Source: Glycomyces salinus | Lineage (GTDB): Bacteria; Actinomycetota; Actinomycetes; Mycobacteriales; Micromonosporaceae | NCBI RefSeq assembly: GCF_016428645.1 | Contig: NZ_JAELXW010000042.1 | Coordinates: 1-64,000 of the forward strand | Reading direction: 5' to 3' | Length of the DNA: 64,000 nt | In this document: positions 14,758-56,644 of the stretch, piece after piece | Position numbering within the stretch: position 1 is the stretch's first letter | Layout: every line of letters starts with the position of its first letter | Position numbers and translations under genes: made by a program | Notes under the pieces: generated by a model | What the model was told of the DNA's origin: nothing | Database searches by the model: none | What the model saw: the letters and a program-made list of their open reading frames with translations, nothing else

Positions 14758-16062
14758 CTAGCCGATGGCCGACTCGGCCTCGGTCATGAAGGCCTCGGTC
14801 GTCTCCTCGGGGCTGGCGTCCCCGAACAGGAGCGGCTCGTAGACCCGCAGCGCGACGTCGGCGATCTGGCCGGCGCCGATCGGAGGCACGGGCGGGCCCT
14901 CGACCAGGTCCGGGGTCAGGTCGGCGATGAACTGCGCGCCCTTCTGGTCGGACTCGGGCAGGTCCGGCAGGATTCGCTCACGCTGCTCCAGGTTGGCCGG
15001 CAGGCCGCGGTCGGTCAGCATCAGGTCGATGGACTCGTCGCTGTTGAGCAGGAAGTCGATGAGCAGCCCGGCGTTCTCCGGGTCGGCCTCGGCCGAGGCG
15101 GCCCAGAACATGGCCGGCTTGAGGTACAGGCCGGGCTGGGAGCCCTCGGTCTCGCCGGGGACGCGCAGGATCTGCAGCTCCGAGCCGAGCGTCGCCTCGA
15201 GCCCTCCGATCTGGTTGGTCCAGTAGAACTCGGTGGCGCCGTTGCCGGTCGCCAGCGGGGCCGCGTCCTGTCCGGCCGCGTAGGCCTCGACGATCTCGGT
15301 GGCCGTCGGGATCGCCTGGGCCTCGAGCAGGTCGGTGACCATGGTCCACCAGGCGGTCATGGTCTCGGCGCTGAAGCCGAGCTGGCCCTCGGGGGTGTAG
15401 AGGCTCTCTCCCCGCTGGCGGGCGAAGACGTTGAACAGGGCCTCGTTGTTGAACGAGATGGCCGAGTTCCCCACCTTGCCGGTGGCCGCGGCGATGTCGG
15501 TGATGAACGCCGCGAAGTCGTCCCAGGTCCACGTGGTGTCGTCGGGCATGTCCATGCCCGCCTCTTCGACGATGGCCGGGTTGACCAGCAGGCACAGCGA
15601 GTTCACGCCGGTGCCGATGCCGTAGGTCGTGCCGTCGAGCTGTCCGCCTCCCAGGACCGCCTCGTCCAGGTTCGCGAAGTCGATGCCGACGTCGTCGAGG
15701 GCCAGGAGCGTGCTGCGGTCGGCGTACTCGCGCAGGTAGCGCTCCTCGTGCTGCATCACGTCGGGTGCGTTGCCGCCCGACACCGAGACGTTGAGGGCGT
15801 CCCAGTAGCCGGACCAGTCCGCGATGGACTCCGAGACCGTGATGCCGTCGTTGGCGGACTGGAAGGCCTCGATGATTTCGCGGGTGTAGGTGTGGCGCTC
15901 GTCGCCGCCCCACCACATGAAGGTCATCTCCCCGGAATCGCCCGAGTCATCGTCGTTGCCGCAGGCGGCCAGCAGCGGGGCGCCGGCGACGCCGGCGGCT
16001 CCGAGCAGACCGGCCTTGGCGAGCGTTCGCCGGCTCAGGCCCGAGGGGTTGTATGACTGCAT
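14758..16062 (-). CDS. Extracellular sugar-binding lipoprotein of an ABC importer (predicted oligogalacturonide/pectin-fragment type)
   Basis: This 434-residue family-1 solute-binding protein has a twin-arginine-like signal SRRTLAKAGLLGAAG and the lipobox LAAC (Cys34), followed by an acidic Asn/Asp/Ser linker. The mature start FMWWGGDERHTYTREII and the later DWSGYWDALNVSVSGGNAPD resemble binding proteins of pectin-derived oligosaccharide importers (TogB/YtcQ/YesO-like), as I recall those families; this is inference. It is the last gene of a leftward unit with two permeases. A LacI-type operator precedes the unit at 18044 and matches the operators of the pectate lyase and uronate operon in this window. 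The start is ATG 16062 after AAAGGACGG. Confidence 0.88.
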   Translation of the reverse strand: MQSYNPSGLSRRTLAKAGLLGAAGVAGAPLLAACGNDDDSGDSGEMTFMWWGGDERHTYTREIIEAFQSANDGITVSESIADWSGYWDALNVSVSGGNAPDVMQHEERYLREYADRSTLLALDDVGIDFANLDEAVLGGGQLDGTTYGIGTGVNSLCLLVNPAIVEEAGMDMPDDTTWTWDDFAAFITDIAAATGKVGNSAISFNNEALFNVFARQRGESLYTPEGQLGFSAETMTAWWTMVTDLLEAQAIPTATEIVEAYAAGQDAAPLATGNGATEFYWTNQIGGLEATLGSELQILRVPGETEGSQPGLYLKPAMFWAASAEADPENAGLLIDFLLNSDESIDLMLTDRGLPANLEQRERILPDLPESDQKGAQFIADLTPDLVEGPPVPPIGAGQIADVALRVYEPLLFGDASPEETTEAFMTEAESAIG

Positions 16063-16098
16063 TTGTATCCGTCCTTTCGGGAGGGATTGCCGGATTTA

Positions 16099-17004
16099 CT
16101 ACTTGATGCCGGTGGTGGCGATGCCTCTGACGAGGTAGCGCTGACCGGCGAGGAAGAACCCGAAGATCGGGCCCAGCGCCACGATTGACATTGCGAACAT
16201 GGCGCCCCAGTTCGACTGGCCTTGGGCGTCGAGGAACAGGCGCAATGCCAGTGGCACGGTTTGCAGGTCGATGTCTCGGATGTAGATCAGCTGGGAGTAG
16301 AAATCGTTCCACGTCCAGATGAACGTGAAGATCGCGGTCGTGGCCAGCGCGGGTGTGCACAGCGGCATGATCACCCGCAGGTAGGTGCCCCAGTAGCTGC
16401 ACCCGTCGATCGAGGCGGCCTCGTCGAGTTCGCGCGGCAGGCCGCGGATGAACTGGACCATCAGGAAGATGAAGAAGGCGTCGGTCGCCAGGAGCTTGGG
16501 GACGATGAGGGGCCAGAAGGTGTTGATCCAGCCGAGGTTGTTGAACAGGATGTACTGCGGGATGATCACGACGTGGATCGGCAGCATGATGCTGGCGAGC
16601 ATGACCGAGAACAGCATCCCGCGCAGGGGGAACTTCAGCCTGGCGAAGGCGTAGGCGGCCATCGAGCAGGACACCAGGTTGCCGACGATCGCCCCGGCCA
16701 CGATGATCATCGAGTTGAAGATGTACTGGTGGAACGGGTGGGGCAGGGCGTTCCAGCCCTCGGTGTAGTTGCTCCACTCGAGACTCCGGGGGATAAGGCT
16801 CGGGTCCGAGAAGATCTGGTCGATGGGCTTGAGCGAGGCCGAGAGCATCCACAGCAGCGGGTAGATCATGACCATCGCGAAGACGATGAGGCCCAGGTGG
16901 ATCAGCAGGCGCTTCAGGCTTCCCAGCTCGCCGCGCCGGCGTTTGCGGGGCACCGGGTGCGGCTCGTGCTCGGCCCGTGCGGGAGTGGTCGTGTCAGTCA
17001 CCAT
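16099..17004 (-). CDS. Carbohydrate ABC transporter permease, MalG type
   Basis: This 301-residue inner-membrane permease has six predicted membrane helices after a basic cytoplasmic N-terminus (PRKRRRGELG). The EAA loop that contacts the ATPase is visible as ELDEAASIDGCSYWGTYLRVIMPL. It belongs to the MalG/binding-protein-dependent class and works with the permease encoded just upstream, whose stop it overlaps by 11 bp. No ATPase gene accompanies the set, so a shared MsmK-like ATPase encoded elsewhere must energise it. ATG 17004 is the start. Confidence 0.92.
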   Translation of the reverse strand: MVTDTTTPARAEHEPHPVPRKRRRGELGSLKRLLIHLGLIVFAMVMIYPLLWMLSASLKPIDQIFSDPSLIPRSLEWSNYTEGWNALPHPFHQYIFNSMIIVAGAIVGNLVSCSMAAYAFARLKFPLRGMLFSVMLASIMLPIHVVIIPQYILFNNLGWINTFWPLIVPKLLATDAFFIFLMVQFIRGLPRELDEAASIDGCSYWGTYLRVIMPLCTPALATTAIFTFIWTWNDFYSQLIYIRDIDLQTVPLALRLFLDAQGQSNWGAMFAMSIVALGPIFGFFLAGQRYLVRGIATTGIK

Positions 17005-17992
17005 AGAACACCCAGAATTTCGACATCAGGAAGTTGAGGGCGGTGAACAGCCCGATGATCATCAGCAACAGCCAGGCCAGGGCCGAGGCGTAGCCCATGT
17101 CGAAGGCCGTGAAGCCGCGGTCGTAGAGGTAGAGCGTGAAGAACAGCGTCGAGTCCGATGGCCCGCCCTTGCCTCCGGAGACGATGAACGCCTGGGTGAA
17201 CGCCTGGAAGGCGTTGATGATCTGGAGGACCAGGTTGAAGAAGATGATGGGCGTCAGCAGCGGGACGGTGATGTTCAGGAACCTGCGCACCGGTCCGGCT
17301 CCGTCGACGCGGGCCGCTTCGTAGTACATGGCCGGGATCTGCCGCAGGCCGGCCAGGAAGATGACCATCGGCGAGCCGAAGGTCCACACGTTCAGGATGA
17401 TCAGGGTGTCCAGGGCGTAGTCGGGGTGGGAGACCCATCCCTGGCCCTGGATCCCGACCATGGCCAGCAGCTGGTTGACCAGGCCGTCGGTGCCGAAGAC
17501 CTGCCGCCACATGATGGCGATCGCGACCGAGCCGCCCAGCAGGGACGGCAGGTAGAAGATCGATCGGTAGATGGGCAGACCGCGGACGCCTCGGTCGAGG
17601 ACCATCGCCAGGGCGAGCGCCATGGCCAGCTGCAGGGGCACTGAGACGAAGACGTACCGGAAGGTGACGCCGATGGAGGCCGCCAGCCGGGGGTCGTCGA
17701 ACATCCGCTGGTAGTTCTCCAGGCCGATCCAGTTGGCGTCGCCGATGAGGCTGTAGTCGGTGAACGACAGGTACAGCGAGGCGGCCATCGGCCCGATGGT
17801 GATCGCCACCAGTCCGAGGAGGAACGGCGCCAGGAAGCTCAGGGCCGCCCAGCGTTCGCGGCTTCGGGCGGATCTGCCGAAGCCCTTCCGCATGGTCGCG
17901 GGGGGCGGGGAGGCTTGGTTCGCCTCCGTCCGCGTCTGCGCGCCGGAGCCGCGCTGATCGGTCGGCGCAACAGCGACTTCGTTGTCGGTCAT
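16994..17992 (-). CDS. Carbohydrate ABC transporter permease, MalF type
   Basis: This 332-residue permease has a disordered cytoplasmic N-terminus (about 60 residues, Gln/Pro/Arg-rich) and then six membrane helices (first: AALSFLAPFLLGLVAITIG). The EAA loop reads YYEAARVDGAGPVRRFLNIT. It forms the heteromeric channel with the MalG-type permease. I chose ATG 17992 (MTDNEVAVAP); the frame remains open further upstream, but an earlier start would include the predicted operator at 18044 in coding sequence. It is first in the importer unit. Confidence 0.92.
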   Translation of the reverse strand: MTDNEVAVAPTDQRGSGAQTRTEANQASPPPATMRKGFGRSARSRERWAALSFLAPFLLGLVAITIGPMAASLYLSFTDYSLIGDANWIGLENYQRMFDDPRLAASIGVTFRYVFVSVPLQLAMALALAMVLDRGVRGLPIYRSIFYLPSLLGGSVAIAIMWRQVFGTDGLVNQLLAMVGIQGQGWVSHPDYALDTLIILNVWTFGSPMVIFLAGLRQIPAMYYEAARVDGAGPVRRFLNITVPLLTPIIFFNLVLQIINAFQAFTQAFIVSGGKGGPSDSTLFFTLYLYDRGFTAFDMGYASALAWLLLMIIGLFTALNFLMSKFWVFYGD

Positions 17993-18042
17993 TGAGTATT
18001 GAGGCCTTTCGGAGGGGGTTCGCTCCAGATCAACCAAGGCTA

Positions 18043-18056
18043 TGCAACCGCTTGCC
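18043..18056. promoter_or_regulatory. LacI-type operator before the sugar importer
   Basis: TGCAACCGCTTGCC contains a perfect copy of the 12-mer GCAANCGCTTGC found also at 55751 and 56086, with near copies at 48152 and 48176. It lies about 50 bp upstream of the MalF-type permease start. A central CG with flanking GCAA/TTGC arms is the usual form of LacI-family operators. Confidence 0.65.
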
Positions 18057-18163
18057 CAGATGTCAATGGCGCGACTTAAATTCCTGAATATCTTTGGCAC
18101 CCCTGAACTCATTAACATCATTCTGACTCACTGATCGACTACCGTCATATCAGAAACAAGAAA

Positions 18164-18189
18164 GGCCCGCCCCGACGACGGGGCGGGCC
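18164..18189 (-). terminator. Intrinsic terminator of the MMPL gene
   Basis: GGCCCGCCCCG (18164-18174) pairs perfectly with CGGGGCGGGCC (18179-18189) across the loop ACGA. In the leftward direction the stem is followed by TTTCTTGTTTC, a T-rich tail, so it fits a Rho-independent terminator 17 bp after the MMPL stop. Confidence 0.85.
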
Positions 18190-18205
18190 AGGTGTTCCGA
18201 CCAGG

Positions 18206-20362: not shown

Positions 20363-20444
20363 GTGCATCTCCTATTCGGGAGGCCGTTGCCACTGTTGCG
20401 GACGGCCGGCCCGGCGGTAGGATGGTGAGCGGTAGAAATTTTGC

Positions 20445-20494
20445 TAACGCCGTTAACCCTAATGAACGGCAATAGTGAAATCAACACCGTTAAC
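20445..20494. promoter_or_regulatory. Probable TetR operators between MMPL and tetR
   Basis: TAACG-C-CGTTA (20445-20455) is a perfect palindrome, and the octamer CCGTTAAC occurs at 20450-20457 and again at 20487-20494, 37 bp apart. The second copy contains the palindrome GTTAAC. They lie in the divergent promoter region between the MMPL start (20362) and the TetR start (20517). Confidence 0.65.
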
Positions 20495-20516
20495 TTGGAT
20501 TCAGCAGAGGAGAACA

Positions 20517-21281: not shown

Positions 21282-21299
21282 GTTCCGGCCGGGTCGCGC

Positions 21300-22856: not shown

Positions 22857-22982
22857 CGCTTGCCCTTCCCGATGAGGTCGACGGAACCTCAACTTTACAA
22901 CTCACATCGGAGGCGGTCAGGGGCTGAAGGGCGTTGTGGCGTGGCAGACTGTGGCCGGTACCGAAACTTCGAAGGAGTCCCC

Positions 22983-23201: not shown

Positions 23202-23220
23202 CCGGGCCAGAAACGAAAAG

Positions 23221-23243
23221 CGGGGCTGCCGAAGGCAGCCCCG
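23221..23243. terminator. Bidirectional intrinsic terminator
   Basis: CGGGGCTGCC-GAA-GGCAGCCCCG is a perfect 10-bp stem with a 3-nt loop. It is followed rightward by TTCGCTTTCG and leftward by CTTTTCGTTTC. It lies between convergent genes ending at 23201 and 23259 and can serve both. Confidence 0.88.
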
Positions 23244-45117: not shown

Positions 45118-46184
45118 CACCGAGCCCGGTCCGGGACGCGGCCGAGACCGACCGGCCGCCCCCGACCGGGTCGCGGCCGCGGTTCCCGGGCGTCGGCCTG
45201 GGCGCGGCCGCGCTGCTGCTGGCCTCGATCGGGGCGGCGATCACCCTGGGCCCGGCCGACGTCTCCCTGGTCAATGTGCGCGACGTCCTCTTCAACCACC
45301 TCGGAGGCGCGGAGATCCCCGTGAGGGTCTCGAAGGAGGCGATCGTCTGGGACGACCGCTTGCCGCGCGCGCTGGTGGCCGCCGCCTGCGGTGCCGGTCT
45401 GGGCCTGTGCGGGGTCGTCCTCCAGTCGCTGCTGCGCAATCCGCTGGCCGATCCGTACGTGCTCGGGATCTCGTCGGGTGCTTCGACCGGCGCGGTCGTC
45501 GTCGGGATCCTGGGCGTCGGCGGGGCCGCGCTCGGCATCCCCGGGGGCGCGTTCATCGGCTCCGTGCTCGCCTTCGCCGTCGTCCTGCTGATCGCGCGGC
45601 TCGCCGGCGGGGGCGACGACAAGGTGATCCTGGCCGGGATCGCGGTCACTCAGTTGTTCTCGGCGCTGACCTCGTTCGTCATCTTCGCCTTCGCCGACTC
45701 GGACGCGACCCGCGGCGTGATGTTCTGGCTGCTGGGCTCGCTCGAGGGGATGCGGTGGAACGACGTCTGGCTGTGCGGCGCCGCTGTCGCCGCCGGGACG
45801 ATGTTCTGCCTGTTCCGGGCCCCGGTCCTCGACGCGTTCGCGTTCGGCGACGACGTCGCCTCCTCCTTGGGCGTCTCCGTCCGGCGTTCGCGCGTCATGT
45901 TCATGACCGTCACCGCGCTGTTGACGGCGACGCTGGTCAGCATCTGCGGCGCCATCGGATTCGTCGGCCTCGTGCTCCCGCACGCGGCCCGCTTCCTCGT
46001 CGGACCGCTCCATGTGCGCCTGGTGCCGGTCACCGCGCTCATCGGAGCGGCCTTCATGGTGTGGGTCGACGCCGTGTCGCGGGTCGCCTTCTCTCCGTCG
46101 CCGCTGCCGGTCGGCGTCGGCACCGCCCTGGTCGGCGTGCCGATGTTCATCGCCATCATGTTCCGCCGCAGGAGGGCCGCGTGA
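45114..46184 (+). CDS. FecCD family ABC transporter permease
   Basis: This is a 356-residue permease with about ten membrane helices. Family segments: WDDRLPRALVAAACGAGLGL, GVVLQSLLRNPLADPYVLGISSGA (in two parts), and IGFVGLVLPHAARFLVGP near the C-terminus. A single gene implies a homodimeric channel, as in BtuC. It starts at GTG 45114, overlapping the binding-protein stop by 4 nt, and overlaps the ATPase by 4 nt at its end. Confidence 0.95.
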   Translation: MTPSPVRDAAETDRPPPTGSRPRFPGVGLGAAALLLASIGAAITLGPADVSLVNVRDVLFNHLGGAEIPVRVSKEAIVWDDRLPRALVAAACGAGLGLCGVVLQSLLRNPLADPYVLGISSGASTGAVVVGILGVGGAALGIPGGAFIGSVLAFAVVLLIARLAGGGDDKVILAGIAVTQLFSALTSFVIFAFADSDATRGVMFWLLGSLEGMRWNDVWLCGAAVAAGTMFCLFRAPVLDAFAFGDDVASSLGVSVRRSRVMFMTVTALLTATLVSICGAIGFVGLVLPHAARFLVGPLHVRLVPVTALIGAAFMVWVDAVSRVAFSPSPLPVGVGTALVGVPMFIAIMFRRRRAA

Positions 46185-46984: not shown

Positions 46985-47950
46985 CTACCGCTCGGCGAGG
47001 AACTTCAGGTGCTCGCCGCGCTGGTGGACTCCGCCGCCTTCGTGCTTGTTCCACGGCCACTCGGTGATGCGCTTCTCGCCCCGCCACCGGTTGTAGGCGG
47101 CGAAGACCGTCGAGGGCGGGCAGATGTCGTCCATCAGGCCGACCGAGTACAGCGCCGGGGCGGTGCCTCGGGCGGCGAAGTGGACGCCGTCGAAGTAGGC
47201 GAGGGTTCCGAAGACCTCCTCCTCGCGCAGGCGCTGCCCGGCCAGGAACTCGACCAGCTCCTGGTAGGGGAAGCCGTCGGTGATCTCGACGGCGCGGCGG
47301 AAGTGGGTCAGGAACGGCACGTCGACGATCGCCCCGGCCAGGTCGTCGCGCAGTCCGCCGACGGCCTGGGTGATGCCGCCGCCCTGGCTGCCGCCGGCCA
47401 CGACCACGCGGTCGGCGTCGATCGCCTCGTGGCCCTTGGCGACGTCCACCGCGCGGTAGGCGTCGGTGAACACGCGCCGGTAGTAGTAGTGCTCGGGGGA
47501 CTCGATGCCCTGGGTCATCCAGCCCTTGTTGGTCGGGCCGGTGCCTCCGTAGGGGTCGCCGGTGTCGCCGGGCTGCCAGTTGCCGTAGCCCTGGCCGCGC
47601 GTGTCCATCACCAGGTGGGCCCAGCCGGCCGCGGCGTACATGGTGTGGGCCCACGGCACCGAACGGCCGCCGGAGTAGCCGATGTACTCGACCACGCACG
47701 GCAGCGGCCGGTCGAGCCCCTTGGGCAGGACCAGCCAGCCCTTGATGGGGTGCCCGGCGAAACCCGCGAAGGTCAGGTCGAAGATCTCGACGGTCGTCAG
47801 GGCGGCGTCGACCGGTTCGAGCCGGACGTCCAGGTCGCCCGCGCCGGCTTCACCCAGGGTCCGCTTCCAGAACTCGTCGAAGTCGGCCGGTTCGGGGACT
47901 TCGGGGCGGTACTCGCGGAGTTCTTCGAGCGGTAGATCGAAAAGTGCCAT
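46985..47950 (-). CDS. Acetyl esterase of the CE7 family (acetyl xylan esterase/cephalosporin deacetylase type)
   Basis: This is a 321-residue alpha/beta hydrolase. The nucleophile elbow is VVAGGSQGGGIT (Ser in GGSQGG). The CE7 hallmarks RGQGYGNWQPGD and the catalytic Asp region SVGLMDDICPPSTVFAAYNR are present, and the final His is in NKHEGGG. There is no signal peptide, so it acts inside the cell on imported acetylated oligosaccharides. It is divergent from the pectate lyase and probably shares its control region, where two LacI-type sites lie. Acetylated pectin or xylan fragments are both possible substrates. Confidence 0.92.
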   Translation of the reverse strand: MALFDLPLEELREYRPEVPEPADFDEFWKRTLGEAGAGDLDVRLEPVDAALTTVEIFDLTFAGFAGHPIKGWLVLPKGLDRPLPCVVEYIGYSGGRSVPWAHTMYAAAGWAHLVMDTRGQGYGNWQPGDTGDPYGGTGPTNKGWMTQGIESPEHYYYRRVFTDAYRAVDVAKGHEAIDADRVVVAGGSQGGGITQAVGGLRDDLAGAIVDVPFLTHFRRAVEITDGFPYQELVEFLAGQRLREEEVFGTLAYFDGVHFAARGTAPALYSVGLMDDICPPSTVFAAYNRWRGEKRITEWPWNKHEGGGVHQRGEHLKFLAER

Positions 47951-48151: not shown

Positions 48152-48163
48152 GCGAACGCTTGC
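48152..48163. promoter_or_regulatory. LacI-type operator, copy 1 of the pectate lyase promoter
   Basis: GCGAACGCTTGC differs at one position from GCAANCGCTTGC. It lies 105 bp before the lyase start and about 200 bp before the divergent esterase start. Confidence 0.6.
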
Positions 48164-48174
48164 AGAGGAGATTA

Positions 48175-48188
48175 TGCAAGCGCTAGCA
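48175..48188. promoter_or_regulatory. LacI-type operator, copy 2 of the pectate lyase promoter
   Basis: TGCAAGCGCTAGCA differs at one position from the fully symmetrical TGCAAGCGCTTGCA. It lies 24 bp from copy 1 (centre to centre about two helical turns), which suggests cooperative repressor binding. Confidence 0.65.
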
Positions 48189-48256
48189 TGTAGTTCCTAT
48201 ATCGAGATGTCTAAATATATCGGCATCTCACTCCTCATCATGAAAGGTACTCCGAT

Positions 48257-49672
48257 ATGGAGAAATTCCTCAGCAGCAGACACTCCAGACGAGGCTTCTG
48301 GAAGGTCGCCGGCCTCTCCGCGGTCGGCGCGGGAGCGGCGGGCACCGGACTGCTCGCGGTCGGCCCGGCACAGGCCGTCGAGACTGGTACCTGGTACAAC
48401 ATCCAGAGCCGTCACTCCGGGCTCTACCTGGACATCCTCGACCTCTCCACCGAGGGCGGCGCCGAACTCATCCAATGGAACGGCACCGGCAACACCAACC
48501 AGCAGTTCCGCTTCCTCGACTCCGGCGACGGCTACTACCGCATCCAAGCCCGACACTCCGGCCTCGTCCTCGACGTCTGGGAATGGAACGCCGACAACGG
48601 CGCCACCATCGCCCAATGGGACGACCTCGGCGGCACCAACCAGCAATGGCAGGTCAACGAATCCGGCGGCTACGCCACCTTCATCAACCGCTTCTCCGGC
48701 AAAGCCCTCGACGTCTGGGAGAACTCCACCGAACCCGGCACCCGCATCTCCCAATACGACCCCACCGGCGGCAACAACCAACAATTCCAACTCGTGCCGG
48801 TCGACGACAACGGCGAGCCGAACCCGGGCGGCCTGGAAGGCTGGGCGACTCAGAACGGCGGCACCACCGGCGGCGCCGGCGGATCCGAGACCACCGTGTC
48901 CTCGGGCTCGGCCCTGATCTCGGCGATCAGCGGCAATTCCCCGAAGGTGGTCCGGGTCAGCGGAACCGTCAGCATCTCGGGAATGAACGACATCGGCTCC
49001 AACACCACGCTCATCGGCAACCCCGGAGCGCGGATCACCGGCGGCGGCGGTATCGACGTCGACGGGGTCAGCAACGTCATCATCCAGAACCTGACCTTCA
49101 GCGACTACTCCGACGACGGCATCAACGTCCAGGACGGGTCGACCAACATCTGGATCGACCACAACACGTTCGAACCCGGCTACGACGGCGCGTGCGACAT
49201 CAAGCGCGGCTCGGACTTCATCACCGTGTCCTGGAACCGGTTCAACGGCACCGACAAGACCTGCCTGCTGGGCCACTCCGACTCCAACGGCGGCCAGGAC
49301 CGGGGCCACCTGCGGGTGAGCTACCACCACAACTACTTCAACGGGACCAACCAGCGCACCCCGCGCGTCAGGTTCGGCAACCCGGTCCACGTCTACAACA
49401 ACTACTACCGCAACATCGGCAGCTACTGCATCGCCACGACGCAGGAGGCCGGCGTCATCGTCGAAGGCAACTACTTCGAGAACTGCAACCGCACCATCGA
49501 CCTCGGACAGGGCTCCTCGCCCGCCGGCAGCGTCGTCTCGCGGAACAACCACGTCGTCAGCTCCCCGAACCCCGTCTCCAGCGGGTCGGTCGGGAGCGTC
49601 CCGTACGGCTTCAACCTGGACACGCCCTCGCAGATCAACTCCATCGTCAGCAACGGAGCGGGCGCGAGCTGA
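48257..49672 (+). CDS. Secreted pectate lyase (PL1) with N-terminal ricin-type lectin domain
   Basis: This is a 471-residue exported enzyme that cleaves polygalacturonate by beta-elimination. A Tat signal (S10-R11-R12-GFWK, cleavage after AQA at 40) is followed by a RicinB-like trefoil (about 44-182) with three QxF/QxW repeats (NQQFRF, NQQWQV, NQQFQL). A linker with Gly/Thr leads to the PL1 right-handed beta-helix (about 210-465). Lyase marks: IWIDHNTF, GACDIKRGSDFITVSWNRF (Ca-binding Asp), and NQRTPRVRFG (catalytic Arg). The start is ATG 48257. Codon usage differs between the lectin and lyase parts. Confidence 0.93.
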   Translation: MEKFLSSRHSRRGFWKVAGLSAVGAGAAGTGLLAVGPAQAVETGTWYNIQSRHSGLYLDILDLSTEGGAELIQWNGTGNTNQQFRFLDSGDGYYRIQARHSGLVLDVWEWNADNGATIAQWDDLGGTNQQWQVNESGGYATFINRFSGKALDVWENSTEPGTRISQYDPTGGNNQQFQLVPVDDNGEPNPGGLEGWATQNGGTTGGAGGSETTVSSGSALISAISGNSPKVVRVSGTVSISGMNDIGSNTTLIGNPGARITGGGGIDVDGVSNVIIQNLTFSDYSDDGINVQDGSTNIWIDHNTFEPGYDGACDIKRGSDFITVSWNRFNGTDKTCLLGHSDSNGGQDRGHLRVSYHHNYFNGTNQRTPRVRFGNPVHVYNNYYRNIGSYCIATTQEAGVIVEGNYFENCNRTIDLGQGSSPAGSVVSRNNHVVSSPNPVSSGSVGSVPYGFNLDTPSQINSIVSNGAGAS

Positions 49673-49756
49673 GGCGGGCGAGTCATTCGAGGTTGAGCAC
49701 CCGGCGGTCGGGGCCCTTCGAGGGCTTCGGCCGCCCGCGCGGTGCCGCCGAAGCCA

Positions 49757-49774
49757 CTCCCGTCCCCGCGGGAG
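49757..49774. terminator. Small hairpin between pectate lyase and the uronate operon
   Basis: CTCCCG-TCCCCG-CGGGAG is a 6-bp stem in the 111-bp gap between convergent transcripts ending at 49672 and 49784. No T-run follows; terminator function is weakly supported. Confidence 0.35.
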
Positions 49775-49783
49775 GGGTCCCGG

Positions 49784-50899
49784 TCAGGCCCAGGGAAGGT
49801 CGAGTTCGCTGAACAGGGACGCGCTCCTGGCGGCGCGTTCGACCGCGGTGTCGGCTCCGGACAGGACCGAGACCGGGTCGTCGCCGATCCGCTCGACGTG
49901 GGCCGGGTCGACCAGTCGCGGCATGGGGTCGCTCAGGACCCGCTCCAGGACGCCGGTGAAGGTCTTGGACCGGCGCAGGCCGGAGATGAGGCCGACGCCG
50001 CGCTGGCGGTGGTGGACGAGGTTGTCCAGCAGGTTGGTGCGGCCGTACTGCTTCGGCTCGTCCTCGCCGGGGAGCAGCAGCCGGTCGGTCGGGTACTCGA
50101 GCCAGGCTTCGCCCTCGCTGCCCTTGACCCACACGTCGCCTTCGAGTTTGCGCTCGCCGCACAGGGTCACGGCGACGGTGACGCTCACGCCGCCCTTGTT
50201 CCTCCCGCGCCACACGGCCGTGTCGTCGACCTCGATCTCGGAGCGGCACCGCAGCCGTTCGAGCTCGATGGAGCCGTCCAGTGGCCAGTCCCCCGCGATG
50301 GCCAGGGCCTGCTGGGAGGCGTGCGCGAACGGGTTGGCCAGGGCCCCGTCGGCCACGGGAGCCCCGTTCAGCTCGCGCTTGCCCGCCCACGGCGAGCGCC
50401 GGTAGTACGAGTCGGGGCGCTGCCATGATCCCGCCACGCCGACCGCTTCCAGGCGACCGAGCTTCCCGGCGTCGAGCGCGTCCCGCAGCGCGTTGATCGC
50501 GTGCGAGCCGAGCGCCTGGAAGCCGACCTGCACGGCCCGTCCGGTCTCGGTCATGACCTCGTAGAGCCGCCGGTACTCCTCCAGCGAGGCGACCGGCGGC
50601 TTCTCCAGGTAGACGTCGGAGCCGTGGCGCATGGCCGCGCTCGCGATCGGCAGGTGCGTGGGCGGCGGGGTGGCGATGACGACGATGTGCGGGTCGGTCT
50701 CGGCCAGCATCCGCTCGTAGTCGTCGAAGACGGCGGCGTCGCCGATCGGGATCTGGTCGTCCTCGATGATCTCGGCGGTGTCGCACAGCGCCGCCAGTTC
50801 GACCTTCCCGGCTTGCCGCCGGGCCTCGATGTCGTGCCGGTGGTGGAGGCCGTATCCGTTGGCGCCTACGATGGCGATGCGCGGAATGGTCAGATCCAT
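49784..50899 (-). CDS. Gfo/Idh/MocA family oxidoreductase (last gene of uronate operon)
   Basis: This is a 371-residue NAD(P)-dependent sugar dehydrogenase-like protein. The Rossmann start is PRIAIVGANGYGLHHRHD. The dinucleotide-site continuation VVIATPPPTHLPIA and DVYLEKPPVAS (the EKP motif with catalytic Lys) are clear. A C-terminal alpha/beta domain follows with an Arg/Glu-rich substrate region. The start is ATG 50899, one base after the stop of the reductase gene. I rejected an upstream ATG at 50929 that would overlap that gene. The substrate is unknown; a sugar acid or lactone fits the operon. Confidence 0.88.
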   Translation of the reverse strand: MDLTIPRIAIVGANGYGLHHRHDIEARRQAGKVELAALCDTAEIIEDDQIPIGDAAVFDDYERMLAETDPHIVVIATPPPTHLPIASAAMRHGSDVYLEKPPVASLEEYRRLYEVMTETGRAVQVGFQALGSHAINALRDALDAGKLGRLEAVGVAGSWQRPDSYYRRSPWAGKRELNGAPVADGALANPFAHASQQALAIAGDWPLDGSIELERLRCRSEIEVDDTAVWRGRNKGGVSVTVAVTLCGERKLEGDVWVKGSEGEAWLEYPTDRLLLPGEDEPKQYGRTNLLDNLVHHRQRGVGLISGLRRSKTFTGVLERVLSDPMPRLVDPAHVERIGDDPVSVLSGADTAVERAARSASLFSELDLPWA

Positions 50900-50900
50900 T

Positions 50901-52274
50901 TTAGAGTTTCTCCAGGGTTCGGGCCACACCGTGCCGGTCCAGTTCGCCGAGCCAGGCCGTGGCGGCCCGGCGCAGCCGGTGATCGGACGCGACCGGTTCT
51001 GGTACGACCTGCCGGATGCCGAGGATCGCGTCGACGCGGGCCGAGGCCCGGTCTCCGGCGGCGGCCAGACTCTGGCGCAGGACCGGCGCGAGGGGGTCGT
51101 CGAGGGGCAGCTCGGTGCCGTCGTCGGCCTTTCCTCCGCAGAAGCGGATCCATGCGGCCAGGGGCAGGGCTATGAGGTCGAGCGCCCGTCCGGCCTCGGC
51201 GAGGTCGGCGATGGTGCCCAGCAGCCGTTGCGGGAGCTTCTGGCTGCCGTCCATGGCGATCTGCAGGCAGCGGTGCCTGATCCCTGGGTTGGCGAAGCGC
51301 TCGAGCACGCTTCGACCGTACGCCACGACGTCTTGACCGTTCGGAGGCGTCAGGCTGGGGGCGATCTGCTCGGCCACCAGCCGTTCGGCGAAGCTCCGGG
51401 CGCCCGGCAGCGCGAGGGTCTCGCTGATCGTCTCGGCTCCGGCGAGCGCGCCGAGGTAGGCGAGGCTGGAGTGCACGCCGTTGAGGGTGCGGAGCTTGAG
51501 CTTCTCCCAGCCGGCGACGTCGGTGGTGAACGTGGCGTTCCAGTCCGGCCGCGGGCCGGCGAAGTCGTCCTCGATGACCCATTGGAGGAACGGTTCGGCC
51601 TCGACGGCGGCGGCGTCGACCAGGCCGAGGGTCTCGATGGCCCGGTCGTACGTCGCCCGGGTGGAGGCGGGCACGATGCGGTCGACCATGGTGGACGGGA
51701 AGGTGACGTGTTCGGCGGCCCATGCGCGGGTGGGGCCGTCGAGCAGCGGTTCGACGGCGGCCCGGGTGGTCTTGCCGTTGTCGGGCAGGTTGTCGCAGCA
51801 CAGGATCGTCAGCGGCGGCCCACCGCGGCGGGCCCGGCGGGCCAGGCCCTCGGCGAGGAGCCCGGGGACGCCCTCGGGGTCGCGGTAGGCCTTCTCGGTG
51901 ACGGTGAGCGTGACGATGTGGATGTCGTCGGAGGCGATGAGTTCGAGCGCGCGCTCGGTCTCGGTGGCCAGGTGCAGCGTGTCGACGATGGAGCCGATGA
52001 CGCGGAGCTCGGCGCCGTCGGGGCCGAGCGTGGCGACGGTGAACAGCCCGTCCTGGGCGGCGAGGGCGTCGATGACCTCGCGGGAGCGCGGCGCGGCGCA
52101 GATGATGCCCCAGTCGGTGTCGTCGGTGTAGACGGCCTGGTGGGCGCGGTGGAACGCGCCGGCGCCTATATGCAGGATGCCGGCCTTCTCAGGCCGGGGG
52201 CCCGGGACGCGGACGTCCTCGGGCACCCCTTTGACGGATTCGTTGTTCAGTGCGGTGTGTGTCAGTTGCGCCAT
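50901..52274 (-). CDS. Mannitol dehydrogenase family protein, probable fructuronate/tagaturonate reductase
   Basis: This is a 457-residue long-chain dehydrogenase. The family hallmark ILHIGAGAFHRAHQAVYTDD, the second motif LTVTEKAYR, and LKLRTLNGVHSSLAYLG (catalytic Lys and Asn-His region) are visible. The family includes UxuB, UxaB and MtlD. Next to UxaC it most likely reduces fructuronate to mannonate or tagaturonate to altronate. The start is ATG 52274, overlapping the dehydratase stop by 13 bp. The open frame upstream to 53168 is antisense-free frame space only. Confidence 0.88.
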   Translation of the reverse strand: MAQLTHTALNNESVKGVPEDVRVPGPRPEKAGILHIGAGAFHRAHQAVYTDDTDWGIICAAPRSREVIDALAAQDGLFTVATLGPDGAELRVIGSIVDTLHLATETERALELIASDDIHIVTLTVTEKAYRDPEGVPGLLAEGLARRARRGGPPLTILCCDNLPDNGKTTRAAVEPLLDGPTRAWAAEHVTFPSTMVDRIVPASTRATYDRAIETLGLVDAAAVEAEPFLQWVIEDDFAGPRPDWNATFTTDVAGWEKLKLRTLNGVHSSLAYLGALAGAETISETLALPGARSFAERLVAEQIAPSLTPPNGQDVVAYGRSVLERFANPGIRHRCLQIAMDGSQKLPQRLLGTIADLAEAGRALDLIALPLAAWIRFCGGKADDGTELPLDDPLAPVLRQSLAAAGDRASARVDAILGIRQVVPEPVASDHRLRRAATAWLGELDRHGVARTLEKL

Positions 52275-53590
52275 GCCGGTCCGTTGGGATAGCTGTATCG
52301 GGCGATCGATTCGTCCTTGAGTGTGACCGAGTATCCCGGTTGAGTGGGCACCTGGTACCGGCCGTCGACGACGGTCACCGGATCGGTGTAGTGCTCGTGC
52401 AGGTGGTCGACGTACTCGATCATGCGGCCCTCGAGTGTCTTGCCGACCCGGAGGTACTCGAACATGCCCAGGTGCTGGACGTATTCGCACAGTCCCACGC
52501 CGCCGGAGTGGGGGCAGACCTCGACGCCGCGCTTGGCGGCCATGAGCAGGGTGGCCACGACTTCGGGGATGCCGCCGACGCGGCAGGCGTCGATCTGGCA
52601 CACGCGGATGGCCTCGGCCTGGAGGAGCTGCTTGAAGATGACGCGGTTGGCCGCGACTTCGCCGGTGGCGACGCGGATCGGCGCGACGGCGGCGGCGATC
52701 TTGGCGTGGCCGAGGATGTCGTCGGGGTGGGTGGGCTCCTCGATCCAGTAGGGGTCGAAGGCGGCCAGGCGCTTCATGTTCTCGACGGCCTCGGGCACGG
52801 ACCAGATCTGGTTGGCGTCCATCATCAGCAGCCGGTCGGGGCCGAGGATGTCGCGGATGATGCCGGCGCGGCGGACATCGTCGGCCACGTCGGGCGAGCC
52901 GACCTTCATCTTGGCGGCGCTCCAGCCGTCGGCGACGGCCTGCTCGGTCAGGGCCCGGACCTTGTCGTCGGAGTAGCCGAGCCAGCCGACCGAGGTCGTG
53001 TAGGCGGGGAAGCCGTCGCGTTCGAGGGTCGCCAGGCGGTCCTCGTAGCCCTTGCGGCCGTCGTCGAGGATGGCCTCGGCTTCGGCCGGAGTCAGCTCGT
53101 CGACGATGTGGCGGTAGTCGATCTGGGCGGCCAGTTCGGCGGAGTCCATTTCGGCCAGCAGCCGCCACATCGGCTTGCCTTCGAGTTTGGCGCGCAGGTC
53201 CCAGACGGCGTTGACGATGGCGCCGACGGCCATGTGGGTCGCGCCCTTCTCGGGGCCGAGCCAGCGGATCTGGGGTTCTTGGACGATGGAGCGCCAGAAC
53301 TCGACCGGGTTCGCGAAGATCCCCTCGACGGTCCTGCCGACGACCAGGTGGGCGTAGGCGCGGCAGGCGGCGGCGCAGATCTCGTTGCCGCGGCCGCCGG
53401 TGAAGGTGAACCCGGTGCCGACCGGTCCGCCGTCGGTGAACAGCTCGACGTAGCAGGCCGAGTAGTCGGCCCGGTTGATCGAGTCGGAGCCGTCGGCGTC
53501 CGCCGCGGTCGGGAAGCGGACGTCGTGGACTTCGAGGCGTTCGATCCTCGCGCTGACGCCTGCGGAAGCGTAAGTTGGCACGGTCGACAT
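52262..53590 (-). CDS. Enolase-superfamily sugar-acid dehydratase, L-fuconate dehydratase type
   Basis: This is a 442-residue protein. The family wording is that of L-fuconate dehydratase (FucD/ENOSF1): TSVGWLGYSDDKVRALTEQ followed by SAAKMKVG (the KxK general base), metal ligands in LLMMDANQIW (Asp), YWIEEPTHPDD (Glu) and VATGEVAANR (Glu), and the catalytic His in EVCPHSGGVGLCEYVQHLGM. The start ATG 53590 follows the uxaC stop directly. In this operon no UxaA or UxuA is present, so this enzyme is the best candidate to dehydrate altronate/mannonate to KDG. FucD-type enzymes are known to accept several sugar acids including altronate at a low level. Confidence 0.88.
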   Translation of the reverse strand: MSTVPTYASAGVSARIERLEVHDVRFPTAADADGSDSINRADYSACYVELFTDGGPVGTGFTFTGGRGNEICAAACRAYAHLVVGRTVEGIFANPVEFWRSIVQEPQIRWLGPEKGATHMAVGAIVNAVWDLRAKLEGKPMWRLLAEMDSAELAAQIDYRHIVDELTPAEAEAILDDGRKGYEDRLATLERDGFPAYTTSVGWLGYSDDKVRALTEQAVADGWSAAKMKVGSPDVADDVRRAGIIRDILGPDRLLMMDANQIWSVPEAVENMKRLAAFDPYWIEEPTHPDDILGHAKIAAAVAPIRVATGEVAANRVIFKQLLQAEAIRVCQIDACRVGGIPEVVATLLMAAKRGVEVCPHSGGVGLCEYVQHLGMFEYLRVGKTLEGRMIEYVDHLHEHYTDPVTVVDGRYQVPTQPGYSVTLKDESIARYSYPNGPAWRN

Positions 53591-55024
53591 TTACTTTTCC
53601 AATCCGTAGATCCTGCGCGGCAGGTTATAGGCCAGGTCCACCGCCACTTCGCCGGCCTCGTCCTCGGTCATGCGGTGCTCGGCGACCAGGCGGGCGAGGA
53701 ACGCGGCGTCGATGCGGCGGGCCACGTCGTGGCGGGCCGGGATGGAGCAGAACGCGCGCGTGTCGTCGACGAACCCGGCGGTGTTGTAGAACCCGGCGGT
53801 CTCGTGGATCGCCTCGCGGAAGCGCATCATGCCTTCGGGCGAGTCGAGGAACCACCAGGGGGCGCCGGCGAAGACCGCGGAGTAGCCGCCGGCGAGGGGG
53901 GCGATCTCGCGGCTGAAGCTGGTCTCGTCGAGGGTGTAGACGACCAGGCGGAAGCGCGGGTCGTTGCCGAAGGCGTCCAGGAGCGGTTTGAGTTCCAGGG
54001 TGTACTCGTTCGAGGAGGGGATGTCGCCGCCGACGTCGCGGCCCCAGCCTTCGTACAGCCACTTGTTGTGGTTGCGGTCCGAACCCGGGTGCAGCTGCAT
54101 GACCAGGCCGTCCTCGACGCTCATGCGGGCGAACTCGACCAGCATGTACGCCGGGAACTGCAGGATCTCCGTCTCGTCGGCCTCGCCGTTGAGCGCCTTG
54201 TGGAAGATCTCCGCGGCCTTCTTGGGGTCGTCGAGCGTGCCGGCGGTCCGGTTGCCGTGGTCCGAGCAGGTCGCTCCCGCCGCGATGAAGTCCCGGCGGC
54301 GGGCCCGCAGCGCGGAGAGGAAGCCGTCGAATGTGGAGGTGTCGACTCCGGTGATCTCGGCCAGCCGCTCCACCCGCTCCTTCCAGCCGGGCCAGCCGGG
54401 CTCGACGAGGTTGTCCGGACGGAACGTGGTGACCACCTTGCCGCCGGGCCCGCCCCATTTGCGGCCGTTCTCGGCGGGCATGGCCTCGAGTTCGGCGTGC
54501 GGGTCGAGGGAGTCCACCGGGCTCTCGGTGGTCGCCAGGACCTCGATGTTGAACTTGTCGAACAGCGCGCGCGGCAGGTAGTCCGGTTCGGTGAGCCGGG
54601 CCGAGAGGTGGTCGTAGAAATCGTCGGCGGTCTCGCCGCTCAGCGGCTTGTAGATCCCGAAGACCTCCGCGAAGGTGTAGTCGAGCCACAGTCTCGAGGG
54701 GGTGCCGCGGAAGAGGTGGTAGTTCTCGGCGAAGCGGCGCCAGATCGCGCGGCCGTCGGCCTCGGACGGGCTCCCGTCGGCCGAGGGCACGCCGAGCTGG
54801 TCGGGCGTGTAGCCCTGGCTGTAGAGCATCCGCGTCAGGTAGTGGTCGGGGACCACGAACAGCCGCGCGGGGTCGGGGAAGGGCTCGTTGCGGGACATCA
54901 GCCGGGGGTCGACGTGTCCGTGGGGGCTCACCAGCGGCAGACCGGTGGTGCGCCGGTGGAGCTCTCGGGCGATCGCGCGGGTCCGGTCGTCGGCCGGGAA
55001 GAGCCGGTCGGGATGCAAACTCAT
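53591..55024 (-). CDS. uxaC: Glucuronate/galacturonate isomerase
   Basis: UxaC isomerises D-galacturonate to tagaturonate and D-glucuronate to fructuronate. The 477-residue protein has the amidohydrolase-like metal motif VSPHGHVDPR, then RTPSRLWLDYTFAEVFGI-type segments, TTESPVDSLDPHAE, the RNHN segment in GSDRNHNKWLYEG, and a conserved C-terminus YNLPRRIYG. The start is ATG 55024. It is second in the leftward operon, 53 bp after the Gfo/Idh/MocA gene, and the next gene begins right at its stop. Confidence 0.95.
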   Translation of the reverse strand: MSLHPDRLFPADDRTRAIARELHRRTTGLPLVSPHGHVDPRLMSRNEPFPDPARLFVVPDHYLTRMLYSQGYTPDQLGVPSADGSPSEADGRAIWRRFAENYHLFRGTPSRLWLDYTFAEVFGIYKPLSGETADDFYDHLSARLTEPDYLPRALFDKFNIEVLATTESPVDSLDPHAELEAMPAENGRKWGGPGGKVVTTFRPDNLVEPGWPGWKERVERLAEITGVDTSTFDGFLSALRARRRDFIAAGATCSDHGNRTAGTLDDPKKAAEIFHKALNGEADETEILQFPAYMLVEFARMSVEDGLVMQLHPGSDRNHNKWLYEGWGRDVGGDIPSSNEYTLELKPLLDAFGNDPRFRLVVYTLDETSFSREIAPLAGGYSAVFAGAPWWFLDSPEGMMRFREAIHETAGFYNTAGFVDDTRAFCSIPARHDVARRIDAAFLARLVAEHRMTEDEAGEVAVDLAYNLPRRIYGLEK

Positions 55025-55077
55025 CGGTGTCTACTCCGGGTCGTGGTCGGGGTGTCGTTGCGGTTCACTGCGGTTTC

Positions 55078-56385
55078 CTACTTGAGCAGATCCGCCACCG
55101 CAATCGGTTGCCCGGTTGCGATGGACTCGTTCGACGCCAGGCCGGCCGCCAGCGCGTTGACGCCGTCCTGGGCGGTGGCCGAGCGGTCGTGAGGGTCGGT
55201 GTCGCCGTCGAAGAGCACGCCGAGCATGCGGCGGTCGCCGCCGCCGTGGCCCTTGCGCTCGTACTCCCCCACGTCGATGCGGTTCGGCTTGGCCCAGAAG
55301 GGGTGGACGGTCAGTTCGTACCAGCCCTCCTCGGGCGAGGCGGCCGAGCCGTGCAGTTGGGCGCCGTTGGGGCCGTGCTGGTCCGGGTTGACGTGGTCGT
55401 TCTCGACCACGAGCAGCTCCAGGCGGCCCTCGGTGCCGTTGAAGTGGACCCGGTAGCCCTCCCAGGGCGAGTAGGCGGTGAGCCGGTACGACAGGGTCGC
55501 GCCGTTCTCGTAGTCGACCAGCGCCATCATGTCGTCGTAGATGGTCACGCCCGGGGCGAAGACGTTCTGGTCGCGGATGTAGCCGTCGGCCTCCTCGGCG
55601 TCGAGGTAGAGGGCCTTGAGCTGCTCGTTCTCCTTCATGTCGAGGGCGAACGGGTCTCCGGATGCCTGCGGGGCGCCGTTGGCGCGCTCGTAGCCGCGGT
55701 CGTGGCCGTGGCGTTCGCCGTTCTCGCCGTAGAACGCGAGCTTCCCTCTAGCAAACGCTTGCACAGGTGCGGAGTCGAGCCACCAGTTGACCAGGTCGAA
55801 GTGGTGGCCGGACTTGTGGACCAGCAGGCCGCCGGACTGGTCGGCCAGGCGGTGCCAGCGGCGGAAGTAGTCGGCGCCGTGGCGGGTGTCGAGGAGCCAG
55901 TCGAACCCGACCGAGACGACTTCGCCGACCGCGCCCTCGCGGAGGAGGTCGGCCACCTTCTCGTGGATCGGGTTGTAGCGGTAGTTGAAGGTGACCGTGA
56001 CCGCCCCGGCCGATTTCCGCTCGGCTTCGAGGATGGCGGCGGCGTGCTCGCCGGTCGTGGTCAGGGGCTTCTCGCAGATGACGTTGCAATCGCTTGCGAG
56101 CGCGGCGAGGATGTACTCGTGGTGGTAGGCGTCGACGCAGGTGACGATGACCGTGTCGGGTTCGGTCTCGGTCAGCAGTCGGTCGAAGTCGGCCGCGGCG
56201 TAGGCGGCCGGCCTGGGGGCTCCGGCGGCCTCGACGGCCGCGGCGTGGTGTTCGATGCGGTGGGGGTTGGTGTCGGCCAGCGCGACGAGCCGCGCTTTGT
56301 CGCTGCGTTCGACCACGGCGTTTGTATACATCGTGGCCCGAGCGCCGGTACCGACCAGAGCGTAGCGATGCGGCGTGCCTGACAT
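55078..56385 (-). CDS. Gfo/Idh/MocA family oxidoreductase (first gene of uronate operon)
   Basis: This is a 435-residue NAD-dependent oxidoreductase-like protein. The Rossmann N-terminus is RYALVGTGARATMYTNAVV. VIVTCVDAYHHEYILAAL and VICEKPLTTTGEHA (EKP with catalytic Lys) follow, then NYRYNPIHEKVADLL and the LLVHKSGHHFDLVNWWLD segment with two His. Such WWLDS/HxxHHFD members occur in plant-polysaccharide clusters. The substrate is unknown. Two perfect copies of GCAANCGCTTGC lie inside the gene, and the codons there (CAA, TTT, GCT, AGA) are atypical of the neighbourhood. The start is ATG 56385 with GAAGGAG upstream. Confidence 0.9.
   Translation of the reverse strand: MSGTPHRYALVGTGARATMYTNAVVERSDKARLVALADTNPHRIEHHAAAVEAAGAPRPAAYAAADFDRLLTETEPDTVIVTCVDAYHHEYILAALASDCNVICEKPLTTTGEHAAAILEAERKSAGAVTVTFNYRYNPIHEKVADLLREGAVGEVVSVGFDWLLDTRHGADYFRRWHRLADQSGGLLVHKSGHHFDLVNWWLDSAPVQAFARGKLAFYGENGERHGHDRGYERANGAPQASGDPFALDMKENEQLKALYLDAEEADGYIRDQNVFAPGVTIYDDMMALVDYENGATLSYRLTAYSPWEGYRVHFNGTEGRLELLVVENDHVNPDQHGPNGAQLHGSAASPEEGWYELTVHPFWAKPNRIDVGEYERKGHGGGDRRMLGVLFDGDTDPHDRSATAQDGVNALAAGLASNESIATGQPIAVADLLK
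55751..55762. promoter_or_regulatory. LacI-type operator inside the first uronate gene, copy 1
   Basis: GCAAACGCTTGC is a perfect match to the shared 12-mer. It lies 623 bp inside the gene. The codons read GTG CAA GCG TTT GCT AGA, mostly A/T-ending in a gene that otherwise prefers G/C-ending codons. Confidence 0.6.
56086..56097. promoter_or_regulatory. LacI-type operator inside the first uronate gene, copy 2
   Basis: GCAATCGCTTGC is a perfect match to the shared 12-mer, 288 bp inside the gene and 335 bp from copy 1. The codons include GCA and GAT, unusual for the region. Confidence 0.6.
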
Positions 56386-56411
56386 GTGGCTCCTTCGTCT
56401 GCGAGGTTCTG

Positions 56412-56423
56412 GTAAACGCTATC
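56412..56423. promoter_or_regulatory. Weak LacI-like site at the uronate operon promoter
   Basis: GTAAACGCTATC retains the AAACGCT core but differs from the shared motif at three positions. It lies 27 bp upstream of the operon's first start codon, where a promoter operator would be expected. Its symmetry is poor. Confidence 0.35.
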
Positions 56424-56644
56424 GAACTCGGGGGTCGAACACAAGACAGAGGACCCGAGACAAACGATTGCCGAGGTTGCGACCACTGTATCCTCCTCCC
56501 GCACTTCCGGCGAACCGGTCCGATGCACGCGAGCCGCCTCGAACTCGCCTATATGAGTTGCGCGCGCCCGATAACCTCGTTCAGCGACGCCCCGCCTCGA
56601 CCTGTCCGTGAACTCCCGGAACGAAGCAGAGAGCTCGACTTGAC

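Follow-up and report, generated by a model that had tools for sequence, protein, structure and literature searches.

The DNA analysed in this study is a stretch of 64,000 nucleotides (the window) from a soil actinobacterium of the genus Glycomyces. It carries genes of a sugar ABC importer, a divergent pair encoding a CE7-type esterase and a PL1-type pectate lyase, and the gene run gfoA-uxaC-dehydratase-reductase-gfo2, together with copies of a putative operator (Table 1).

Table 1. Genes, putative operators and promoter of the window
Feature	Position	Strand	Remarks
Importer substrate-binding protein (SBP_bac_8)	14758..16062	-	sugar ABC importer; best solved relative YesO
Importer permease B (BPD_transp_1)	16099..17004	-
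Importer permease A (BPD_transp_1)	16994..17992	-	start at 17992 preferred by us
Perfect putative operator GCAACCGCTTGC	18044..18055		about 50 bp before the permease A start
CE7-type esterase (AXE1)	46985..47950	-
Operator-like site, one mismatch	48152..48163		divergent CE7/PL1 intergenic region
Operator-like site, one mismatch	48176..48187		24 bp nearer PL1 than the 48152 site
PL1-type pectate lyase	48257..49672	+	ricin-type lectin domains
gfo2, second Gfo/Idh/MocA dehydrogenase	49784..50929	-	last gene of the run
Fructuronate/tagaturonate reductase-like gene (UxuB/UxaB type)	50901..52262	-	below NCBIfam cut-offs; start approximate
Enolase-superfamily sugar-acid dehydratase	52262..53590	-	L-fuconate dehydratase match over nearly full length
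uxaC, uronate isomerase	53591..55024	-	NCBIfam equivalog cut-off passed
gfoA, Gfo/Idh/MocA dehydrogenase	55078..56385	-	first gene of the run; three perfect operators within coding sequence
Perfect putative operator, gfoA 3' end	55100..55111		offset 1274; 76 bp before uxaC
Perfect intragenic putative operator, mid-gene	55751..55762		gfoA offset 623
Perfect intragenic putative operator	56086..56097		gfoA offset 288
Putative gfoA promoter, TTGTGT-17 bp-TAGCGT	56411..56444	-	read by eye
Operator-like site, one mismatch	56460..56471		just upstream of putative gfoA promoter; perfect there in G079

UxaC scores 513.9 bits against the NCBIfam equivalog cut-off of 387. The interpretation offered by an earlier, sequence-only reading of this DNA is supported, but its “dehydratase” is nearest by sequence to L-fuconate dehydratase and a human homologue (closest solved chains: human enolase superfamily member 1 and L-fuconate dehydratases). 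A ManD mannonate dehydratase assignment was dropped for this gene (55.1 bits, equivalog cut-off 550). YesO has a role in rhamnogalacturonan uptake. It is the best match of the importer binding protein among solved structures, as judged by sequence (PDB 5z6b, a putative ABC transporter substrate-binding protein; E 7.2e-49). The longest ORF of permease A extends to 18121, a start that would overlap the site at 18044. No promoter was found by a sigma-70 consensus scan of positions 49600-56700; TAGCGTTTACCA, located at the putative gfoA promoter, is kept in all 22 Glycomyces genomes.

The sequence-only reading connected these loci by the motif GCAANCGCTTGC, perfect at 18044, 55751 and 56086 and with one mismatch at 48152 and 48176. 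All five positions proved to be exact, but this pattern is not symmetric; the true palindrome is the 12-mer GCAANCGNTTGC, the putative operator. With this form, a perfect copy at 55100 and a one-mismatch copy at 56460, both overlooked previously, are gained, which brings the window to four perfect and three one-mismatch copies. The sites at 55751 and 56086 do lie in what had been called the first uronate gene, although this gene encodes a Gfo/Idh/MocA dehydrogenase and its coding sequence holds three sites.

The seven window sites with at most one mismatch compare with a mean of 1.79 and a maximum of 5 in 100 dinucleotide shuffles. Far less than one perfect copy per 64 kb had formerly been estimated to arise by chance; Markov models predict 0.04 (order 1 and 2) or 0.017 copies (order 3), against the four present. 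The whole genome (5.37 Mb) contains 10 perfect copies, with 3.4, 3.4 and 1.4 expected under orders 1, 2 and 3, respectively; the GC content is 69.6%. It might still be argued that the palindrome reflects chance or base composition and that the sites do not serve as operators. With up to one mismatch allowed, the own genome has fewer sites than a reversed control gives (96 versus 229), and while its perfect sites exceed the control (10 versus 3), the control equals or surpasses the motif in 14 of the remaining 21 Glycomyces genomes. Motif counts were for this reason rejected as evidence. Since the raw counts are weak, the evidence lies in where the sites are located. Each of the 10 perfect genomic sites is located at a gene of pectin/uronate type, at the associated importer or at a single LacI-family gene, and the functional bias of the motif thus withstood a genome-wide scan. 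Other genera, moreover, contribute 36 divergent loci, each with a site pair (see below). Given these locations, we regard an origin by chance as highly improbable.

The sequence-only reading had noted that the window contains no LacI-family repressor; a LacI-family gene preceded by two operators of its own (one perfect, one with a single mismatch) was located elsewhere in the genome (LacI-A; contig C144, 44260-45249). Its product belongs to the LacI family by the domains PF00356 (54.5 bits), PF13377 (106 bits) and PF00532 (79.6 bits), all above cut-off, and the 18 models of named NCBIfam LacI subfamilies that it matches (RbsR, CcpA, CytR, GalR, GalS, PurR, GntR and others) all score below their cut-offs. 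At least one site was found upstream of all seven LacI-A genes of Glycomyces, and in six cases it is perfect.

In related genera, a homologous repressor is encoded in one block together with the uronate operon and an importer, and two sites occupy the common intergenic region. Out of 586 relatives, the best 80 gfoA loci were kept and fetched; in 36 of them, a LacI homologue (50% or more) and gfoA face each other at a distance of no more than 700 bp. Every one of these loci has, between the LacI-A homologue and the uronate operon, two sites that deviate by one mismatch or less, at least one of them perfect, which supports the interpretation of the sites as a LacI-repressor regulon. Both sites are perfect in six loci, and in 27 the second one lacks the central CG (GCAAACCTTTGC in 22, GCAAAGGTTTGC in five). 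The Glycomyces arrangement differs in that LacI-A is located apart from the uronate genes. The window importer shares 25-30% identity (binding protein) and 48-58% identity (permeases) with the importer of the block. Because LacI-A has its own operators and operators lie between its homologues and the uronate operon in 36 of 36 divergent loci, we identify it, from sequence comparison and with good confidence, as the candidate for the missing repressor.

The window loci would very probably belong to a dispersed pectin/uronate regulon controlled by LacI-A through GCAANCGNTTGC, intragenic operators included. LacI-A would bind before the importer, the CE7/PL1 pair and its own gene, at and inside gfoA and, in other parts of the genome, upstream of additional pectin lyases and a GH42 galactosidase. 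A perfect site was also observed at a distance of 11-53 bp upstream of the called start codon of a permease A homologue in five of the six other LacI-A genomes (not in G075), as well as in the three LacI-B-only genomes examined (LacI-B is described below). In these six LacI-A genomes, 43 of 60 perfect sites lie at genes homologous to the pectin queries, a raw tally which leaves out the own genome as the query source; the query set includes ABC-transporter and LacI proteins, rich in paralogues. Further genes at such sites were recognised by Pfam: a rhamnosidase, two genes of rhamnogalacturonan-lyase type and a KDPG aldolase. The three LacI-B-only genomes have 31 sites, 14 of them at similar kinds of genes. 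The Fisher value for the site tally (0.021) carries little weight, as it assumes independent sites and sets one clade against another. The count of at least 44/61 was obtained by scoring at most 35 candidates per genome.

LacI-B is a second LacI-family protein, 39% identical to LacI-A, which is encoded in all 15 Glycomyces genomes devoid of LacI-A and also in the own genome, which has both. Specificity of the motif for LacI-A was rejected: the surroundings of the sites, inspected in three of the 15 LacI-B-only genomes (G061, G062 and G063; gfoA was inspected in all 22), revealed the motif before homologues of PL9, PL1, CE7 or permease genes. Moreover, nine of the 17 LacI-B genes, the own one among them, are preceded by one or two one-mismatch sites at a distance of up to 450 bp. 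Of the LacI matches, 30 were taken as loci, so that the check for upstream sites covered part of the other LacI proteins in the LacI-B-only genomes. Since the own genome has a LacI-B gene with similar upstream sites, some of its sites could belong to LacI-B, and this protein might even exert the main control over the pectin operators there, with LacI-A in a secondary role. We consider this unlikely. The six other LacI-A genomes, one of which (G075) is given as 92% complete, gave no LacI-B match and still have sites at pectin genes. The sites upstream of LacI-B are never perfect (0/17) and are missing in 8 of the 17 cases, including G061. Finally, the own LacI-B faces a second uxaC/uxuB-like pair, sits on the longest branch within the LacI-B group and carries a changed residue in the recognition helix. 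LacI-A is therefore retained here as the principal candidate. The data nevertheless hint at a swap between LacI-A and LacI-B with retention of the motif copies, because these still precede pectin genes in three LacI-B-only genomes, a hint weakened by the modest number of LacI-B genes with an upstream site (nine of 17, none perfect).

The operators inside gfoA were analysed by synonymous recoding of the own gene. In 20,000 trials, no perfect site arose in 19,984 cases, one in 16 and never more, compared with the three observed. Since no recoding produced more than one site, the three operators look as if they were under selection. The codons at these sites include rare ones (TTT 0.8%, ATT 2.4%, GCA 3.1%, CAA 8%). 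The mid-gene site, with at most one mismatch, is present in all seven LacI-A genomes and in none of the 15 LacI-B-only genomes, and the two groups differ there both at silent positions and at positions that alter the protein. This does not represent many independent co-occurrences, a possibility which we rejected, since the tree (21 genomes; G075 gave no DXR match) places them in one phylogenetic split. Alternatively, the intragenic matches might be by-products of the protein sequence with no regulatory role, and the upstream sites alone would then matter. Such a view is consistent with the rarity of coding-region sites, below 1% in the part of a LacI-family survey considered here (PMC4052901), with the 3'-end site being perfect in seven of the 15 LacI-B-only genomes, and with the offset-288 site being perfect in the own genome alone (one mismatch in G063 and G049). 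The recoding result, the rare codons and the retained mid-gene site argue against it, as do perfect sites inside the dehydratase gene, seen in three relatives, and we judge it to be improbable. No site is present within gfoA in the 36 divergent loci. In G064, G066, G075, G076 and G077, the 330 bp preceding gfoA gave no site, even with up to two mismatches allowed.

As most operators of the uronate genes lie within coding sequence, repression there would most likely occur by blocking the elongating RNA polymerase and covering the DNA before uxaC. Contacts between repressors may perhaps assist, and both a roadblock and looping are conceivable. The repressor would be released by a product of pectin degradation, which is probably either a uronate or an oligogalacturonide. 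A more far-reaching interpretation remains tentative and, in our opinion, rather doubtful as a whole: that the uronate operon of one Glycomyces clade is mainly under the control of intragenic roadblocks, with codons and some amino acids bent to keep the operators, and that the repressor was exchanged across the genus for a LacI-family protein reading nearly the same word, while the operators were retained.

To conclude, this analysis names, for Glycomyces and related genera, a candidate repressor of pectin use and a set of candidate operators, of which we found no description among open-licence PubMed Central papers. It also points to two oddities: operators that persist within coding sequence in spite of codon bias, and a possible regulator swap with unchanged operators. 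The regulon is of a known kind, and the intragenic operators are a variation on it. The core of the PurR operator is GCAAACGTTTGC, which is identical to GCAANCGNTTGC for one choice of the two N; LacI-A, however, reaches 143.3 bits against the NCBIfam PurR cut-off of 501, and the targets differ.

The closest parallels are the LacI-family uronate regulator groups ExuR, KdgR, UxaR and UxuR (Ravcheev et al. 2014, PMC4052901). As far as the relevant parts of this survey extend, LacI-family sites are even palindromes with a central CG, a form also seen in the putative LacI-A sites of Glycomyces, and non-orthologous sucrose regulators have clearly different motifs. The proposed Glycomyces system resembles these groups in its LacI-family protein, its even central-CG palindrome, its autoregulatory sites and its predicted control of uronate catabolic genes. 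It differs in being dispersed and in having operators within coding sequence, and the same parts of the survey name no actinobacterial uronate group. Repressor sites in coding sequence are described there for E. coli (a LacI site within lacZ and a PurR site in purB; PMC4052901). In comparison with these, Glycomyces has up to three perfect sites per gene, and five relatives lack a site, with up to two mismatches, over 330 bp before gfoA.

The pectin and uronate genes of Glycomyces salinus probably form a dispersed regulon of the LacI type. The operator sites, the kinds of gene at which they lie, the degree to which they are conserved and a codon signal are seen in the sequence. A literature search of open-licence papers found no published description of this regulon. 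A LacI-type protein would bind at the sites and repress these genes, and an inducer would presumably release it.

Re-scanning of the window bore out all five site coordinates of the sequence-only reading; the sites of its palindrome stood, but the exact form did not, the symmetric version being GCAANCGNTTGC. Seven sites with up to one mismatch are present in the window, compared with a mean of 1.79 and a maximum of 5 in 100 shuffles. Markov models of orders 1, 2 and 3, trained on 241 kb of the genome, predict 0.04, 0.04 and 0.017 perfect sites in the window (4 observed), and 3.4, 3.4 and 1.4 in the whole genome (10 observed). The reversed control motif has 3 perfect matches in this genome; with one mismatch allowed it is commoner than the motif (229 versus 96), and of 21 other Glycomyces genomes 14 have its perfect form at least as often as the motif. 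For this reason, site counts taken alone are weak evidence.

Putative operator sites and two LacI-family genes of G. salinus
Feature	Location	Strand	Description
Perfect site	window, 18044		
Perfect site	window, 55100		within gfoA (offset 1274)
Perfect site	window, 55751		within gfoA (offset 623)
Perfect site	window, 56086		within gfoA (offset 288)
One-mismatch site	window, 48152		between CE7 and PL1 genes
One-mismatch site	window, 48176		between CE7 and PL1 genes
One-mismatch site	window, 56460		offset -86 of gfoA
Perfect site	C13:12778		at start of Pel9A-like/CBM ORF
Perfect site	C13:65770		before CBM6-CBM35-Pel9A-like gene
Perfect site	C30:4703		between PL1-CBM gene and epimerase-type gene
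Perfect site	C44:1266		before GH42 galactosidase
Perfect site	C113:7893		before PL1 gene
Perfect site	C144:45436		before LacI-family gene (LacI-A)
LacI-A (P0001)	C144:44260-45249	-	LacI HTH and sugar-binding domains
LacI-B (P0004)	C178:23041-24003		39% identical to LacI-A

Six of the ten perfect sites lie outside the window. The pairing of a perfect with a one-mismatch site is repeated at 45299/45436 (LacI-A), 4594/4703 (C30), 65662/65770 (C13) and 7881/7893 (C113); both members of the window pair between the divergent CE7 esterase and PL1 lyase genes have one mismatch. Another one-mismatch site (C13:46901; L043, 6902) lies between a binding-protein gene and permease genes in divergent orientation, beside a gene for an MGH1-like glycoside hydrolase, and possibly marks a further target of the regulon. 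An argininosuccinate-synthase-like protein (L044, 12228-14210), whose gene adjoins an MFS transporter gene and is itself close to an operator-bearing PL9-like gene, has about 190 residues ahead of the matched domain.

The nearest solved structure to the importer's binding protein is YesO. The minus-strand run comprises gfoA (a Gfo/Idh/MocA gene), uxaC, an enolase-superfamily dehydratase gene, a fructuronate/tagaturonate reductase-like gene and gfo2. The dehydratase (52262-53590), which occupies the position expected for UxaA, UxuA or ManD, is L-fuconate-dehydratase-like: its matches to human enolase superfamily member 1 (E 2.9e-147) and to L-fuconate dehydratase (E near 1e-141) span almost the whole protein. 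D-arabinonate, a substrate of enolase-type L-fuconate dehydratases (PMC6336799), and D-altronate have the same C2-C4 configuration, and the enzyme may be the altronate dehydratase. In Glycomyces genome G079, the called start of a KDPG-aldolase gene is overlapped by a perfect site, which is consistent with the last step of the same pathway. A second uxaC/uxuB-like pair (48% and 36%) is divergent from LacI-B (L368 of C178, 6809-10501), and this locus has two one-mismatch sites, 9300 and 9368.

Of the 48 matches to the LacI HTH in this genome, one belongs to the candidate repressor, LacI-A. Its gene is flanked not by pectin genes but by those for a siderophore-interacting protein and for a biopterin-dependent hydroxylase. 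With at most 35 candidates scored per genome, LacI-A matches at E up to 1e-60 occur in at least 44 of 61 genomes of the family, and all 30 LacI loci fetched from this search, our own included, have at least two sites with up to one mismatch (a perfect site in 27). In the 450 bp upstream of each of the seven Glycomyces LacI-A genes there is one site or more, and six of these genes have a perfect one.

Among the best 80 of 586 gfoA relatives, all from named genomes, 36 loci have a LacI homologue of at least 50% facing gfoA. Every one has two intergenic sites with up to one mismatch, at least one of them perfect, spaced 129-162 bp apart, and no site was found in the gfoA coding sequence of these loci. 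Both sites are perfect in only 6 of 36; the second has lost its central CG, with both arms kept, in 27 (GCAAACCTTTGC in 22, GCAAAGGTTTGC in 5) and reads GCAAACGTTTGT in 3. uxaC and the binding protein gene are present in all 36, the reductase gene and each permease gene in 35, gfo2 in 34 and the dehydratase gene in 31, with the full set of seven in 30 (some contigs end early). The parts scattered in Glycomyces are therefore a single block in these relatives. Own gfoA is 78-80% identical to named Glycomyces records, which places the organism in this genus, and gfoA relatives of 46-48% identity occur in records of Lentisphaeria, Phycisphaerales, Verrucomicrobia, Victivallales and Spirochaetes (L095, L113, L118, L119, L122, L123, L129).

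Within Glycomyces, LacI-A (E up to 1e-80) is found in 7 of 22 genomes, and LacI-B in all 15 others plus G. salinus; the LacI-B search of the six other LacI-A genomes returned nothing except LacI-A itself at about 40%. In G065, LacI-B is duplicated (L325, L339), with identities of 74% and 66% to P0004. A single fully supported branch of a DXR-locus tree (21 genomes) parts LacI-A from LacI-B-only genomes, so this distribution amounts to one event. A regulator swap is possible. Homologues of the pectin query set accompany 14 of 31 perfect sites in three LacI-B-only genomes versus 43 of 60 in the six other LacI-A genomes, and 9 of 17 LacI-B genes have upstream one-mismatch sites (none perfect; eight have no site). 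Together with the similar recognition helices, these sites suggest that LacI-B recognises nearly the same DNA word as LacI-A. Another LacI protein could instead be responsible, especially in cases like that of G061, where LacI-B lacks an upstream site.

The codon signal of the regulon comes from gfoA. When its protein was held fixed and codons were sampled according to own-genome usage, 19,984 of 20,000 recodings had no perfect site, 16 had one and none had two or more, compared with the three observed. Rare codons fall within the sites (TTT 0.8%, ATT 2.4%, GCA 3.1%). Across the 22 Glycomyces genomes, the offset-623 site (up to one mismatch) is present in 7/7 with LacI-A (perfect in two) and 0/15 without it, an association which, resting on the same single split, is also one event. 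The offset-1274 site is perfect in 5/7 and 7/15, respectively; that at 288 is perfect in own genome only, and G063 and G049 each have it with one mismatch. The dehydratase gene of three relatives contains an additional perfect site.

A putative gfoA promoter with TAGCGTTTACCA, identified by eye, is kept in all 22 genomes. So is GATAGCGTTTACCA (56410-56423), which overlaps the putative -10 and may double as a binding site for another protein. Directly upstream of this promoter, the offset -86 site occurs only in own genome and G079 (perfect); the five other LacI-A genomes have no site with up to two mismatches in the 330 bp before gfoA. The intragenic operators would act as a roadblock, with DNA looping as a possible alternative. 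A roadblock study states that a range comparable to promoter repression may need multiple roadblocks (PMC4132739), and the several operators of gfoA are consistent with such a requirement.
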